Assembly: GCA_020859945.1 (NCBI GenBank)
Contig: JAJBVG010000019.1
Location: 1-64,000 of the forward strand
Direction of reading: 5' to 3'
From: Clostridiales bacterium
GTDB taxonomy: Bacteria > Bacillota > Clostridia > Oscillospirales > Oscillospiraceae
DNA length: 64,000 nt
Every line of letters starts with the position of its first letter. Position 1 is the first letter of the stretch. Positions 9,099-17,078 of the stretch are shown one piece after another. The notes under the pieces were generated by a model. It made no database searches. It was given only the letters and a program-made list of their open reading frames with translations, and had not been told where the DNA came from. Position numbers and translations under genes: made by a program.

Positions 9099-9872
9099 AT
9101 GACGAAGGATGAGAAGAGCGCCTGTGACGCTGATACTAATTCAGGAGAAAAATTACATCAAAACCAGTCGATAAAGTCAGAAGATACCAATGAATATAAG
9201 GAAACGGATAGAATAATCTCGTGCAGGGCTTATGCTACTGTTCGGTTCCAACACTGTGACACTAATACTAATTCAGGAGAAAAATTATATCCAAATCAGT
9301 CGATAAAGCCAGAAGATACCAATGAATATAAGGAAATGGACAAAATATTCACATGCAGGACTTATGCCGCCGTTCGGCTTCGACGGAATGAAATGTGGTT
9401 GCAATGGATTAGCATATATTATTCTTGTTTTACCGCTATTCTTGCACTGCTCTCTCTCCGAGAAGGATCTTCTTTTTTGAATGTTCCCGCTGCGATTTTT
9501 ACAGTTACAGTTGCCATGCTAGTGATTTTTGCAAATGCGCAAAAGTATGGTTCTAGGGCAAATGATTTAGCTGTGAATTGCAACGATATGAGAATGACGT
9601 TAAGAAGATTCAAGGAAGCGCTTCAAAATGGTGAAAAAGAAATCGTTAATGAAGAATATGCCAAGTTTATTGAGCAGTTAGCTGACAGCGAACAGCATTA
9701 TCCAGTCGATGAGTACAAATATGGCTGCAATCAGGACGGTAGAAAAGGAAGGTTCAACAAATTTTGCTGGTATTCCTATCTCACTTTATATACTTTATTT
9801 ATCTTATGTTTGTTTGGTATTCCAGTGCTTTTTATTTGTGTCTATTGGGTACAGTTACTCACCTTGTTGTAA
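9099..9872 (+). CDS. SLATT-like two-TM membrane protein (putative stand-alone defence effector) with duplicated N-terminal segment
   Basis: Two hydrophobic segments (ISIYYSCFTAILALL...VTVAMLVIFANA), Y-rich linker, C-terminal TM pair; 44-aa N-terminal tandem repeat; AT-rich codon usage. Confidence 0.5.
   Translation: MTKDEKSACDADTNSGEKLHQNQSIKSEDTNEYKETDRIISCRAYATVRFQHCDTNTNSGEKLYPNQSIKPEDTNEYKEMDKIFTCRTYAAVRLRRNEMWLQWISIYYSCFTAILALLSLREGSSFLNVPAAIFTVTVAMLVIFANAQKYGSRANDLAVNCNDMRMTLRRFKEALQNGEKEIVNEEYAKFIEQLADSEQHYPVDEYKYGCNQDGRKGRFNKFCWYSYLTLYTLFILCLFGIPVLFICVYWVQLLTLL
9123..9375 (+). repeat. Tandem duplication, 132-bp period, inside the SLATT-like ORF
   Basis: tgtgacgctgatactaattcagg (9123) and tgtgacactaatactaattcagg (9255) start two homologous units; period 132 = 44 codons. 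Confidence 0.9.
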
Positions 9873-12495: not shown

Positions 12496-13614
12496 TTACC
12501 GCATGGACTGGTACATCTCGTCCAGCATGGCATCGGTGATCTCTACCGGGTTGTTGTACAGGTTGGGATGGCGGCTGATGCGGACCAAGTCGGCAACCTG
12601 CTCGTCAGTCAGATTGTACTCCTTCAAGTCGGTGCGCAGGCCCACGTCCACTTTCAGCTGGTGAATGGCGTCGGCCATGTCGTACATATCCTTGAAGCCC
12701 AAGTCGCGGGCGAAGGCGTGGATGCGCCCGTCCTGAGCGTCGGCGTTGATGCGGGCAAAGTAGTCCAGGGTCAGGCCGCAGGCTTCGCCGTGGGGGATGT
12801 GCAGCAGGTTGGTCAGCGGGAAGGAGCAGGCGTGGGAGCTGGTGGTCTTGGGCAGGGTGAAGGCCAGACCAGCGATGACGGACGCCTCGGCCATCTTGGA
12901 CCGGGCCTCCTGATTCTCCGGCTCCTTGACGGCGGTGCGCAGGGTCTCAAAGACGATTTTCGCCGCGTGCAGTGCCAGCGCATCGCAGATGGGCTGATGT
13001 CCCTTGCTCCAGAAGCCCTCCACCGCATGGCACAGCACGTCGATGCCGGTGCTGGCGGTCATGTAAGGGGGCAGGGTGTAGGTCAACTCCGGGTCGATGA
13101 GGGCGATGGCGGGGTAAAAGGCGTTGGAGTTGATGGGGCCTTTCTTGCCCAGCGCCTTGTCGCTGAGGACGGAGACGCAGGTGACCTCGCTGCCGGTACC
13201 GGCAGTGGTGGGGATGGCCACCAGGGGCAGATGCTCCTGGGGCATGGGGATGCCGGTGCCGTGGTACTTGCGGATGGAGTCCTCAGTGAAGCAGACAGAG
13301 CCGGAGGCTTTGGCGCAATCCAGCGCGCTGCCGCCGCCCAGGGCCACCAGGAAGTCGATGTTGTTGTCCCGAATCTGCTGGGCGCAGGCGTCCACCTCGG
13401 TGACCTCCGGGTTGGGGGAGACCTGGCTGTAAATGCCCACCAGTGCTCCGTCGCTGGCGGCGACGATCTGCTCCGCCAGGCCGCTCTTCATAAAGAAGGG
13501 GTCGCTGACCAGCAGGCCGCGGTTACAGTGCAAGCTCTCGGCAACGCTTTTCAGGTCCTTCACGATGCCCGCGCCAAAGCGGATGGTGACAGGCTGTAAA
13601 TATTCCCATTCCAT
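12496..13614 (-). CDS. Iron-containing (type III) alcohol dehydrogenase
   Basis: ALGGGSALDCAK; TTAGTGSEVT; HAVEGFWSKGHQP; HACSFPLTNLLHIPHGEACG. Confidence 0.88.
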   Translation of the reverse strand: MEWEYLQPVTIRFGAGIVKDLKSVAESLHCNRGLLVSDPFFMKSGLAEQIVAASDGALVGIYSQVSPNPEVTEVDACAQQIRDNNIDFLVALGGGSALDCAKASGSVCFTEDSIRKYHGTGIPMPQEHLPLVAIPTTAGTGSEVTCVSVLSDKALGKKGPINSNAFYPAIALIDPELTYTLPPYMTASTGIDVLCHAVEGFWSKGHQPICDALALHAAKIVFETLRTAVKEPENQEARSKMAEASVIAGLAFTLPKTTSSHACSFPLTNLLHIPHGEACGLTLDYFARINADAQDGRIHAFARDLGFKDMYDMADAIHQLKVDVGLRTDLKEYNLTDEQVADLVRISRHPNLYNNPVEITDAMLDEMYQSMR

Positions 13615-13688
13615 GAGTGCTATCCTCCTAATGAATCAGATTTATAGAATCCGGCCCGCAGGGGAACTGCGGACCGGATTTGCAATGC

Positions 13689-14654
13689 TTATTTCCGGGC
13701 GAGGACCTTCTTGGTCTTGGCAACGATCTCGTCGGCGGTCAGGTTGAAGCGCTTGGCCAGGTAATCCACCTGTCCCACTTCACCGAACTCGTCCTGAACG
13801 CCCACCATCTCCAGGGGAGCGGGGCAGTTCAGCGCCAGGGCGGAGGCCACGGCGGAGCCGAGGCCGTTGCGGATGTTGTGGTTCTCGGCGGTGACGATAG
13901 CGCCGGTTTCCTTGGCGGCGGCCACCACAGCGGCCTCATCCAGGGGCTTCAGGCACCACATATCCACCACCCGGGCGGAAATGCCCTCGGCGGCCAGCAG
14001 GTCGGCAGCTTTCAGCGCCTCGGCCACCAGGTAGCCGATGGCGAAGATGGTCACGTCGGTGCCCTCCCGCAGCAGGCAGGACTTACCCACGGCGAACTCG
14101 CTCTCCGCCTCGTAGATGACGGGGGCGGGCTTCCGGTGCAGACGGATGTACCAGGTGCCGTAGGTCTCCTTGGCCAGACGAACGATTTTGCCCAGGGAGA
14201 CGGCGTCGCAGGCTTCCACCACGGTCATTTCGGGGATGGTGGACATGATGCCCAGGTCCTCAAAGGGCATATGGGTGCCGCCGTTCAGGGCGGCGGTGAT
14301 GCCGGGGTCGGAACCCACCACTTTCACATTCTGCTTGGCATAGGCGCAGGACATAAAAATCTGGTCACAGGCACGACGGGAGGCGAAGGGGCCGAAGGTA
14401 TGGGTGAAGGGGATGAAGCCGCGGGAGGACAGACCGGCGGCCACGCCGATCATATTGGCCTCCTGCACGCCGCAGTCAAAGGTCCGCTCAGGATACGCCG
14501 CGCGGAAGGGCTTGGTGCCCGCCGCGTTCATCAGGTCGGCGTCCAGCACTACGACGCGGTTATCTTCTCCGGCCATCTCCAGCAGGGTGTCGCAGAACAC
14601 CTTGCGCAGCTCGACCTTGCCCATCTCATGGGTGGCAGCAACTTTTACGCTCAT
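13689..14654 (-). CDS. Transketolase C-terminal subunit
   Basis: Pyr/C-terminal domain: DADLMNAAGT, FDCGVQEANMIGVAAGLSSRGFIPF, THMPFEDLGIM. Confidence 0.88.
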   Translation of the reverse strand: MSVKVAATHEMGKVELRKVFCDTLLEMAGEDNRVVVLDADLMNAAGTKPFRAAYPERTFDCGVQEANMIGVAAGLSSRGFIPFTHTFGPFASRRACDQIFMSCAYAKQNVKVVGSDPGITAALNGGTHMPFEDLGIMSTIPEMTVVEACDAVSLGKIVRLAKETYGTWYIRLHRKPAPVIYEAESEFAVGKSCLLREGTDVTIFAIGYLVAEALKAADLLAAEGISARVVDMWCLKPLDEAAVVAAAKETGAIVTAENHNIRNGLGSAVASALALNCPAPLEMVGVQDEFGEVGQVDYLAKRFNLTADEIVAKTKKVLARK

Positions 14655-14673
14655 GACAGTCGTCCTCCTTCGC

Positions 14674-15504
14674 TCAAAGGGCCTGGAGCTGGGCGTCCAG
14701 CTCGGCCAGGGCCTCGTCCACCATCTCGGCGGTAACAGGCATATTGTGGGAACCCAACGCGCCCTCGATTTTGCTGTAGCCCTTGCCCTTGACGGTGCTC
14801 AGCACGATGACGGAGGGCTTGCCGCTCTGGGCCTTGGCGTTGGCAATGGCCGCGGCGATCTGCTCCACGTCGTTGCCGTCCTCCACGGTCTGGGCGTACC
14901 AGCCGAAGCTGTCGAACTTCTGGGCGATGTCGCCCAGGGCGCACAGATTCTGCACGTAGTCGTCAATCTGGCACTTGTTGTAGTCCACGAAGGCGATGAC
15001 CTTGGTGAGCTTTTTCGCGGCAGCAAAGAGCGCGGCCTCCCAGACCTGGCCCTCTTCGATCTCGCCGTCGCCCATAATCAGGTAAGTATAGTTGTCATAC
15101 CCCTTGAGGCGGTTGGCGCAGGCGATGCCCATGGCGGAGCTGGCGCCCTGGCCCAGGGAACCGGTGGTCATGTCGATGCCGGGGGTGCGGTTCATGTCGC
15201 AGTGGCTGGGCAGGTTGGTGCCGGGCTTGTTCAGGGTGCTGAGCATTTCCATGGGGAAATAGCCCTTCAACGCCAGGGTGGAGTAGACAGCGGGTCCGGC
15301 GTGGCCCTTGGAGACCACCAACATGTCCCGGTCGTCCTTCTTGGGGTCGCTGGGGTCGATGTTCATCTCGCCGCTGTACAGCACGGCCAGCACATCCACG
15401 ATGGACAGCGCGCCACCGATGTGGCCCACGCCCAGGTTGCCGATGCACTTGATGGTTTCCTTGCGAATGTCAATCGCAAATTTTTTGACTTCGTTCACAT
15501 TCAT
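14674..15504 (-). CDS. Transketolase N-terminal (TPP-binding) subunit
   Basis: VSKGHAGPAVYSTLALKGY; TGSLGQGASSAMGIA; MGDGEIEEGQVWEA. Confidence 0.88.
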   Translation of the reverse strand: MNVNEVKKFAIDIRKETIKCIGNLGVGHIGGALSIVDVLAVLYSGEMNIDPSDPKKDDRDMLVVSKGHAGPAVYSTLALKGYFPMEMLSTLNKPGTNLPSHCDMNRTPGIDMTTGSLGQGASSAMGIACANRLKGYDNYTYLIMGDGEIEEGQVWEAALFAAAKKLTKVIAFVDYNKCQIDDYVQNLCALGDIAQKFDSFGWYAQTVEDGNDVEQIAAAIANAKAQSGKPSVIVLSTVKGKGYSKIEGALGSHNMPVTAEMVDEALAELDAQLQAL

Positions 15505-15533
15505 AGCAATGCGTCCTTTCCGATGTTGCGGCC

Positions 15534-16022
15534 TCAGCCGTAAATCTCCTGCTCCACAGCCTGAACCTTCTCCTTCGCGCCTTTCAGGAACTCCTGACGC
15601 CAAGGCTCCAGGTCCTGTCCAAACTCGGTGGTCAGGAAGGTGTCCACCATCTGGAGCGGCATGGACAGGGCGCTGTCGTCACAGGTGAGCTTGCAGCCGC
15701 CCATGGTCATGATGTTGGCGTCGTTGATGGCGCGGCACATCTTGGCGTCGTAGGTGTCGCTGCAGAGGACAGCGTAGACGCCCTTATACTTGTTGGCCAG
15801 GATCTCCATGCCTGCGCCTGTGCCGCAGATCAGGATGCCCCGCTCAAATTCACCGCTGGAGACGCGGGAAGCCACGGCAGGCGCCGTCACGAAGAAGGGC
15901 TTCACATGATCCAGGTCCTGGGTGCCGCCATCCTCCACTTCGTACCCTTGGGCGATCAGGTGGGCCTTGACCGTCTCTTTCAGGGTAAAGCCGGACTTGT
16001 CCGAGCCGATGATCACTTTCAT
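15534..16022 (-). CDS. RpiB/LacA/LacB-family sugar isomerase, divergent
   Basis: MKVIIGSDKSGFTLKETVKAHL...GILICGTGAGMEILANKYKGVYAVLC; canonical SDHAG position reads SDKSG. Confidence 0.82.
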   Translation of the reverse strand: MKVIIGSDKSGFTLKETVKAHLIAQGYEVEDGGTQDLDHVKPFFVTAPAVASRVSSGEFERGILICGTGAGMEILANKYKGVYAVLCSDTYDAKMCRAINDANIMTMGGCKLTCDDSALSMPLQMVDTFLTTEFGQDLEPWRQEFLKGAKEKVQAVEQEIYG

Positions 16023-16052
16023 AACACATTCTCCTTTTCTGCTTAAAAATTC

Positions 16053-16982
16053 TTATTCTTCCACTGGAGCGGCTTGGCGCCGGTTTTCCAGTAAAATACC
16101 AACTGCTCCGGCCAGGACCACCGCCATGCCCAGGTACTGGGAGGGCACCATCACCTCGCCAAACAGGACGAAGGTAATAAGCGTTGCCACCACCGGCATC
16201 AGCAGCAGGAAGGTCTTGACCAGCCAAACGGGATAGTTCCGCAGGTTATAATAGTACACCACGTAAATGAGCGTCTGCCCCAGGCCCGCCAGAGCCAGGG
16301 CCAGGGCTGCGTAGGGGTTGGTCAGCACCACGCTGAACTGCCCCAGTGTTCCCATCACCAGCGAGGTGATGAGGAAGAGGATCAGCGTGACAAAGTTGTT
16401 GTAGTAGGCCACCACGTCGTCACAGACGGGGTTGACCTTGTCCAGCTCCACGCTTTTGATGACAAAGGCGTTGCAGGAGACAAAGAAGGCGCTGAGCAGG
16501 AAGAAGATGTTGCCCGGGTCGGCGATGCGGAAGGAGGCGAAGTCAAATCCCATCACCACGAACACGCCCACCAGCATGACGAAGGTATACAGCCACGCCC
16601 GCAGGGTGAACCGCTGCTTGTAGATAAAGACGGACATCACATTGACCATCAGCACGTCGCATTTCAGCAGGGCTGTGCCGCTGGCCGCCGAGGACAGGGA
16701 CAGGCCGATGAACGCCGTGAAGTCCAGCAGAAAGCCCAGCGTGCCGATGAGCAGCAGACGGGGGAGAACGCCGTGGACCTGCGTCAGAAGCGGAAATTCT
16801 TTCTTTTTCAGCATGATGATGGTCAGCAGCACCAGCGTCACCAGTCGGATGCCCACCCCGGAGGTGAAAACCGAGGTGTAACCCACCCACTGCTGGCTGG
16901 CCACATAGTAGCTGCCCCAAATCACCGGCAAAATCAGCAGGGAAGTCAGGGAGTTCTTGGATGTCTCCATCTTGCGCACCAT
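16053..16982 (-). CDS. DMT/EamA-family transporter
   Basis: About ten TM segments; internal duplication typical of EamA family. Confidence 0.8.
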   Translation of the reverse strand: MVRKMETSKNSLTSLLILPVIWGSYYVASQQWVGYTSVFTSGVGIRLVTLVLLTIIMLKKKEFPLLTQVHGVLPRLLLIGTLGFLLDFTAFIGLSLSSAASGTALLKCDVLMVNVMSVFIYKQRFTLRAWLYTFVMLVGVFVVMGFDFASFRIADPGNIFFLLSAFFVSCNAFVIKSVELDKVNPVCDDVVAYYNNFVTLILFLITSLVMGTLGQFSVVLTNPYAALALALAGLGQTLIYVVYYYNLRNYPVWLVKTFLLLMPVVATLITFVLFGEVMVPSQYLGMAVVLAGAVGILLENRRQAAPVEE

Positions 16983-17049
16983 CCTTATTTGACGCTTGGG
17001 AGAAGAAACCTTCCATAATTGATTAAAACGTCAAATTAATTATAGTCTG

Positions 17050-17078
17050 ATAATAGCGCATTGGAGAAAAATTGTCAA
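17050..17078 (-). promoter_or_regulatory. Promoter for the DMT-RpiB-transketolase-ADH operon
   Basis: Minus strand TTGACA - 17 nt - TATTAT. Confidence 0.6.

Follow-up and report, generated by a model that had tools for sequence, protein, structure and literature searches.

Plant membranes contain a sulfur-bearing sugar, sulfoquinovose (SQ), which ranks with the most abundant organosulfur compounds; the isethionate formed from it feeds the hydrogen-sulfide producers of the gut. The sulfo-transketolase pathway of Clostridium sp. MSTE9 comprises SqvD, SqwGH, SqwI, SqwF and SqwE (PMC9594981, PMC11659671), and a cluster in Faecalispora jeddahensis (L078) encodes SqvD, a sulfoquinovosidase, TauE, SqwF, SqwG, SqwH, SqwI, a ROK protein, a DUF4867 protein and an ABC binding protein, in an order that fits the one implied by the consecutive gene numbers of MSTE9 (PMC11659671). 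Sulfo-transketolase capacity in the Oscillospiraceae has been published (4.7% of 3230 genomes; PMC13219744) and the pathway itself is thus known. The subject here is a five-gene operon in a 64,000-nucleotide stretch of the genome of a Clostridiales bacterium of that family (assembly GCA_020859945.1, contig JAJBVG010000019.1, positions 1 to 64,000), which is referred to below as the window. The operon encodes a two-subunit transketolase, an RpiB-like isomerase, an iron-dependent alcohol dehydrogenase (Fe-ADH) and a drug/metabolite transporter (DMT), and it would very probably supply the lower half of a reductive sulfo-transketolase pathway fermenting SQ.

The system is a variant of the MSTE9 pathway and not a copy of it. 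It resembles the MSTE9 and Faecalispora systems in having a sulfoquinovosidase (64% identity), an SQ isomerase (65% identical to F. jeddahensis SqvD), an SqwI-type isomerase (60%) and a split transketolase with the RAFDR residue set, the N half being 56% identical to Faecalispora SqwG and the C half 56% identical to SqwH; a DUF4867 gene is also shared, the product of its orthologue in the related genome G020 being 45% identical. It differs in that the reductase belongs to another clade and the transketolase apparently to another sublineage, in having a DMT gene in place of the TauE/SafE exporter SqwE, which is not in the cluster, in having tripartite tricarboxylate transporter (TTT) genes in place of an ABC importer, and in being divided between two separate loci. 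The original prediction, made from the window sequence, is thus supported with two refinements: the reductase is of TauF type and no orthologue of SqwF, and the transketolase carries the sulfo-type residues but apparently belongs to a sublineage other than that of MSTE9-type SqwGH. Clusters of rumen Oscillospiraceae, such as that of Ca. Limivicinus (PMC13219744), share the host family and the set of steps, and the rumen loci L103 and L128 have TctABC beside the sulfoquinovosidase, as here; the TauF-type reductase and the window-type transketolase were, however, not found in the rumen Oscillospiraceae loci. No description of this combination of parts was found in the open-access papers searched. 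Because its pathway is divided between two loci and relies on another reductase and other candidate transporters, this lineage would be overlooked or wrongly named by searches in which SqwF, SqwE, an importer of the ABC or MFS type or a single contiguous cluster is required.

The operon and the proposed pathway

Five same-strand genes behind a promoter had been predicted, and both their families and their order were confirmed by the open reading frames and by Pfam (Table 1). All five frames start with ATG preceded by a purine-rich, Shine-Dalgarno-like stretch, the gaps between genes are 19-74 nt, and the promoter-like site was found where it had been placed, 67 nt before the first ATG of an operon running from 16982 to 12496. 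Gene order is kept in close relatives. As had been noted at the outset, a sugar kinase, a sulfoquinovosidase and an SQ isomerase are all absent from the operon. The latter two were found on contigs C6 and C39 when the genome, which measures 2.67 Mb in 97 contigs and is 99.5% complete, was searched, and this check, which had been suggested with the original prediction, thus came out in its favour. The same genome encodes three further split transketolases and a single standard RpiB elsewhere, so that the set in the operon is additional to the housekeeping enzymes.

In the proposed scheme, a YihQ-type sulfoquinovosidase of glycoside hydrolase family 31 (GH31) would release SQ from its glycosides, SQ or an SQ glycoside probably being imported by a TctABC-type transporter, and an SftI/SqvD-type isomerase would convert SQ to 6-deoxy-6-sulfofructose. 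The two-subunit transketolase would transfer C1-C2 of sulfofructose to glyceraldehyde 3-phosphate, yielding xylulose 5-phosphate and 4-deoxy-4-sulfoerythrose, and the RpiB-like enzyme would turn the latter into 4-deoxy-4-sulfoerythrulose. Removal of a second C2 unit by the transketolase would leave sulfoacetaldehyde, to be reduced with NADH to isethionate by the TauF-type dehydrogenase and probably exported by the DMT transporter. The scheme draws on what the DNA shows directly, namely which genes are present, their families and key residues, their orthology and their co-occurrence.

Table 1. Features of the operon, with positions in the window
Feature	Position	Strand	Evidence
EamA-family DMT transporter	16053-16982	-	Pfam EamA, E=5e-23, above cut-off
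SqwI-type isomerase, RpiB/LacAB family	15534-16022	-	Pfam LacAB_rpiB, 1e-38, above cut-off
Transketolase N half, thiamine diphosphate-binding domain, SqwG-like	14674-15504	-	Pfam Transketolase_N, E=6e-54, above cut-off
Transketolase C half, Pyr and C domains, SqwH-like	13689-14654	-	Pfam Transket_pyr, 6e-31, above cut-off
Fe-ADH, TauF-type	12496-13614	-	Pfam Fe-ADH, 8e-44, above cut-off
Promoter-like site, TTGACA-17 nt-TATTAT	17078-17050	-	11/12 consensus positions; consensus match only

Upstream genes and their association with the operon

The upper genes form a second locus in the order DUF4867, GH31 sulfoquinovosidase, TctC, TctB, TctA and SQ isomerase, of which the first three lie at the end of contig C6 (GH31 at C6:39534-41552) and the rest at the start of contig C39 (SQ isomerase at C39:2420-3763). 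These two ends map about 85 bp apart in G020 and about 87 bp apart in G023, another related genome, and the break is therefore an assembly gap; in G020 the same genes are one uninterrupted run. A single 178 kb contig of G020 (C60) bears both the upper genes (72.7-80.5 kb) and the lower operon (148-152.5 kb), about 69 kb apart, and in G009, a genome of the same genus (81-86% identity), the two loci stand side by side: behind the operon come genes for a ROK regulator, an SftI/SqvD-like isomerase, TctA, TctB, a TctC-like protein and, truncated at the contig end, a YihQ-like GH31 enzyme. The shared contig in G020 and the adjacency of the loci in G009 led to rejection of the idea that the upper genes were contaminants or had been mis-binned. 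Eight rumen genomes have an isolated SqwI-ADH pair (L081, L086-L089, L092-L094); the SQ isomerase is on other contigs in all eight and an SqwG-like transketolase (about 50% identity) in six, none being found in the assemblies of the remaining two, so that the spread of the pathway over separate loci is recurrent.

Against YihQ-type structures the GH31 enzyme scored 774-1034 bits, compared with 153 for the alpha-xylosidase YicI. In alignment with E. coli YihQ it retains the residues that surround the sulfonate (two Gln, Arg, Trp and Tyr) together with the two catalytic Asp. The orthologue in G020, which is 97% identical, reaches 934 bits with the curated YihQ model, the cut-off of which is 553. 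When the G020 orthologue of the SQ isomerase (99% identical) was tested, its sole NCBIfam match was the SftI sulfoquinovose isomerase, at 410 bits. TctA and TctB were identified by Pfam, and the sequence profile of the TctC-like protein matches TTT binding proteins of known structure; its AlphaFold model was of low confidence (mean pLDDT 61) and was not used. A TTT system has been proposed for sulfolactate (PMC10507020), and the open-access papers searched yielded no description of one for SQ. In another genome of the genus (G001, 76% complete), in which SqwI and the SQ isomerase were not found, a 175-residue fragment 91% identical to the sulfoquinovosidase and with an in-frame TGA (G001:C75:5441-5965, L159) is possibly a decaying remnant.

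Among 118 related genomes, mostly metagenome assemblies, the SQ isomerase (E<=1e-60) was found in seven, and these are precisely the ones that have the SqwI-type isomerase, the close subfamily of which is present in six relatives besides the window genome. Under random placement the odds of such a coincidence would be about 1 in 5x10^10, a figure that overstates the case because the genomes are related. A wider survey with an SqwI alignment located 80 named loci, and in the stretch around each locus the N half of the transketolase was found at 63, an ADH at 65, an EamA transporter at 50, a sulfoquinovosidase at 36 and an SQ isomerase at 32; the transketolase, ADH, sulfoquinovosidase and SQ isomerase cluster together with SqwI across the loci.

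Proposed assignment to sulfoquinovose and points against it

The sulfo-transketolase reading, as first put forward, is thus supported by the upstream genes, by residues and by co-occurrence, but a number of observations weigh against it. The Fe-ADH is not an orthologue of SqwF, being only 39% identical to the Faecalispora enzyme and in a separate clade; free trees put the window transketolase outside the SqwGH clade, in a different sublineage; the score of the SQ isomerase is under the NCBIfam equivalog cut-off of 700; and the two halves of the pathway lie in separate operons, so that their co-regulation is putative. Moreover, the assignment, and with it the reactions in this organism, the substrates and direction of transport and any induction, is predicted from sequence.

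These considerations leave some room for the same chemistry serving another main sulfonated sugar, such as sulfofucose or sulforhamnose, SQ then being a minor substrate. The substrate is predicted from the genes and the SQ isomerase is below its curated cut-off. In a sulfo-transketolase cluster of G067, moreover, the GH31 enzyme (L038:2640-4658), 36-38% identical to the sulfoquinovosidase of the window genome, carries Gln and Phe where YihQ has its sulfonate-binding Arg and Tyr, and perhaps differs in glycosidase specificity. The GH31 enzyme of the window genome, however, keeps those residues and its orthologue is well above the YihQ cut-off, whilst the only curated family matched by the isomerase is that for SQ, and another sulfosugar is accordingly regarded as very improbable. 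Another unusual C4-C6 sugar, which had been left as an alternative in the original prediction, is now also unlikely.

The isomerase and the transketolase

The isomerase groups with SqwI, separately from RpiB. It belongs to the same family as RpiB and shares with it the catalytic Asp8 and Cys66, but the ring-opening His99 of RpiB is replaced by Ile, and the positions of the RpiB phosphate contacts His11, Arg113, Arg137 and Arg141 (PMC4783025, PMC3755991) are occupied, in alignment to solved structures, by Lys9, Cys110, Leu138 and Arg142, so that only the last contact is retained. We infer that these losses fit a substrate that is unable to close to a furanose, as would be the case for 4-deoxy-4-sulfoerythrose because it is without a 4-hydroxyl group. 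Lys9 is present in 80/80 SqwI rows, a count that is partly circular because the scan pattern included that motif, although the other changes in SqwI are free of this circularity. No relative of the isomerase was found in the plasmid collection searched, and a plasmid origin is consequently without support. SqwI-type genes also occur on contigs titled Planctomycetota, Fervidobacterium and Bathyarchaeota (L095, L121, L127, L134), of which the Bathyarchaeota-titled contig is 3.8 kb long and may be mis-binned.

The residues concerned with phosphate orientation are RSFHR in ordinary transketolases and RAFDR in the sulfofructose transketolase (PMC11659671), and the C half encoded in the window carries RAFDR (R17, A44, F90, D116 and R174). 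A44 and L123 are each present in 9/9 members of the window clade; among the other SQ-linked transketolases A44 is found in 45/51 and L123 in 51/51, compared with 1/17 rows for either residue in the nearest non-SQ transketolases. The window clade grouped (support 100/99) with transketolases of other Oscillospirales that adjoin a glycyl-tRNA synthetase-like gene (recognised by eye) or sit in an inositol operon.

The neighbours beside the glycyl-tRNA synthetase-like gene are what might favour a reading of the operon as pentose-phosphate paralogues of the ordinary kind, accompanied by a general alcohol dehydrogenase and having nothing to do with sulfonates. The genome is already provided with other split transketolases and a standard RpiB, however, the isomerase is without the ring-opening His and most of the phosphate contacts, the nearest relative of the ADH is a sulfoacetaldehyde reductase and co-occurrence with the SQ isomerase is exact. 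Neither the RSFHR motif nor the RpiB residue set is present, and the isomerase, reductase, sulfoquinovosidase and SQ isomerase each fall among enzymes of sulfosugars or sulfonates rather than among those of the pentose-phosphate pathway, on which clustering the original prediction had been staked. Pentose-phosphate paralogues were rejected on residues, co-occurrence and the reductase, and are most unlikely.

The inositol operon mentioned above (L195:951-10045, in G045) contains a split transketolase of the same wider subfamily together with IolD, IolE, a LarA-like racemase and a type II glyceraldehyde-3-phosphate dehydrogenase, and possibly represents an unusual inositol route; related transketolases occur at L174 (same genus), L175 and L177. 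Since DerI-type erythrulose-4-phosphate isomerases belong to the same family as the window isomerase, an inositol- or erythritol-type sugar pathway might also be considered, but L195-type transketolases are without RAFDR and L123, the operon holds no inositol or tetritol genes and the DerI model gave 88 bits on the isomerase against a cut-off of 240, which makes such a pathway scarcely credible.

Within the SQ pathway, a single clade of all SQ-linked transketolases was rejected (p=3e-10), but the claim of an independent origin is toned down here because a single SQ clade with two non-SQ rows allowed inside gave p=0.047. The separate recruitment of the window transketolase is thus suggestive, and the case for strict orthology with SqwGH is weakened. 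In Agathobaculum (L073; A. massiliense Marseille-P4005) a transketolase of the window type is paired with a reductase of the SqwF type, the combination that stepwise replacement would predict. The changes from Ser or Cys to Ala at position 44 and from Tyr, Met or Phe to Leu at position 123 would offer a clear case for how a transketolase gains sulfosugar specificity.

The reductase and the probable exporter

The best structural match of the Fe-ADH was BkTauF (6JKO), at 580 bits compared with 169 for the next, and the two are 67% identical without gaps over 369 residues. BkTauF is a characterised sulfoacetaldehyde reductase of the taurine pathway of Bifidobacterium kashiwanohense, and TauF enzymes have been recognised by at least 50% identity to it together with the active-site residues Phe252, Thr257 and Phe265 (or Tyr) (PMC6616044). 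F252, T257 and F265 are all present in the window enzyme, the metal site of which is kept with His as ligand 196 where BkTauF has Gln, and it is predicted to be a TauF-type NADH-dependent sulfoacetaldehyde reductase, which would link the TauF family to plant-sulfolipid breakdown. The reductases of MSTE9-type clusters, 35-40% identical to it, form a different clade, and strict orthology with their SqwF was rejected. BkTauF serves taurine nitrogen assimilation (PMC6616044), and a like role for the Fe-ADH, its place in the operon being incidental, is very improbable, as the gene lies 74 nt behind the transketolase, a position kept in nearly all close relatives, and the operon is without an aminotransferase.

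The EamA/DMT transporter is a probable isethionate exporter, in substrate and direction alike; for Faecalicatena, export of organosulfonates by a drug/metabolite permease has already been proposed (PMC11659671). TauE-family genes occur elsewhere in the genome, on C9, C29 and C92.

Taken a step further, the window system may be a modular second version of the pathway, in which a transketolase was recruited from a different lineage, gaining A44 and L123 in parallel with SqwGH, the reductase was exchanged for one of TauF type, and SQ or its glycoside would enter through a TTT system, a new class of SQ transporter. This fuller version is tentative, and rather less likely than not to hold in all its parts.

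Other observations

In G020, but not in the window, the Fe-ADH gene is directly followed by one for a protein of 1039 residues that looks secreted and has esterase, FIVAR and fibronectin domains (L059:3697-6816, minus strand). SLATT domains are associated with defence systems, and a two-transmembrane protein with a SLATT_5 domain (E=1e-14) is encoded at 9099-9872 of the window on the plus strand, adjoining rplJ/rplL; some 40 residues at the N-terminus of this protein are duplicated in tandem.

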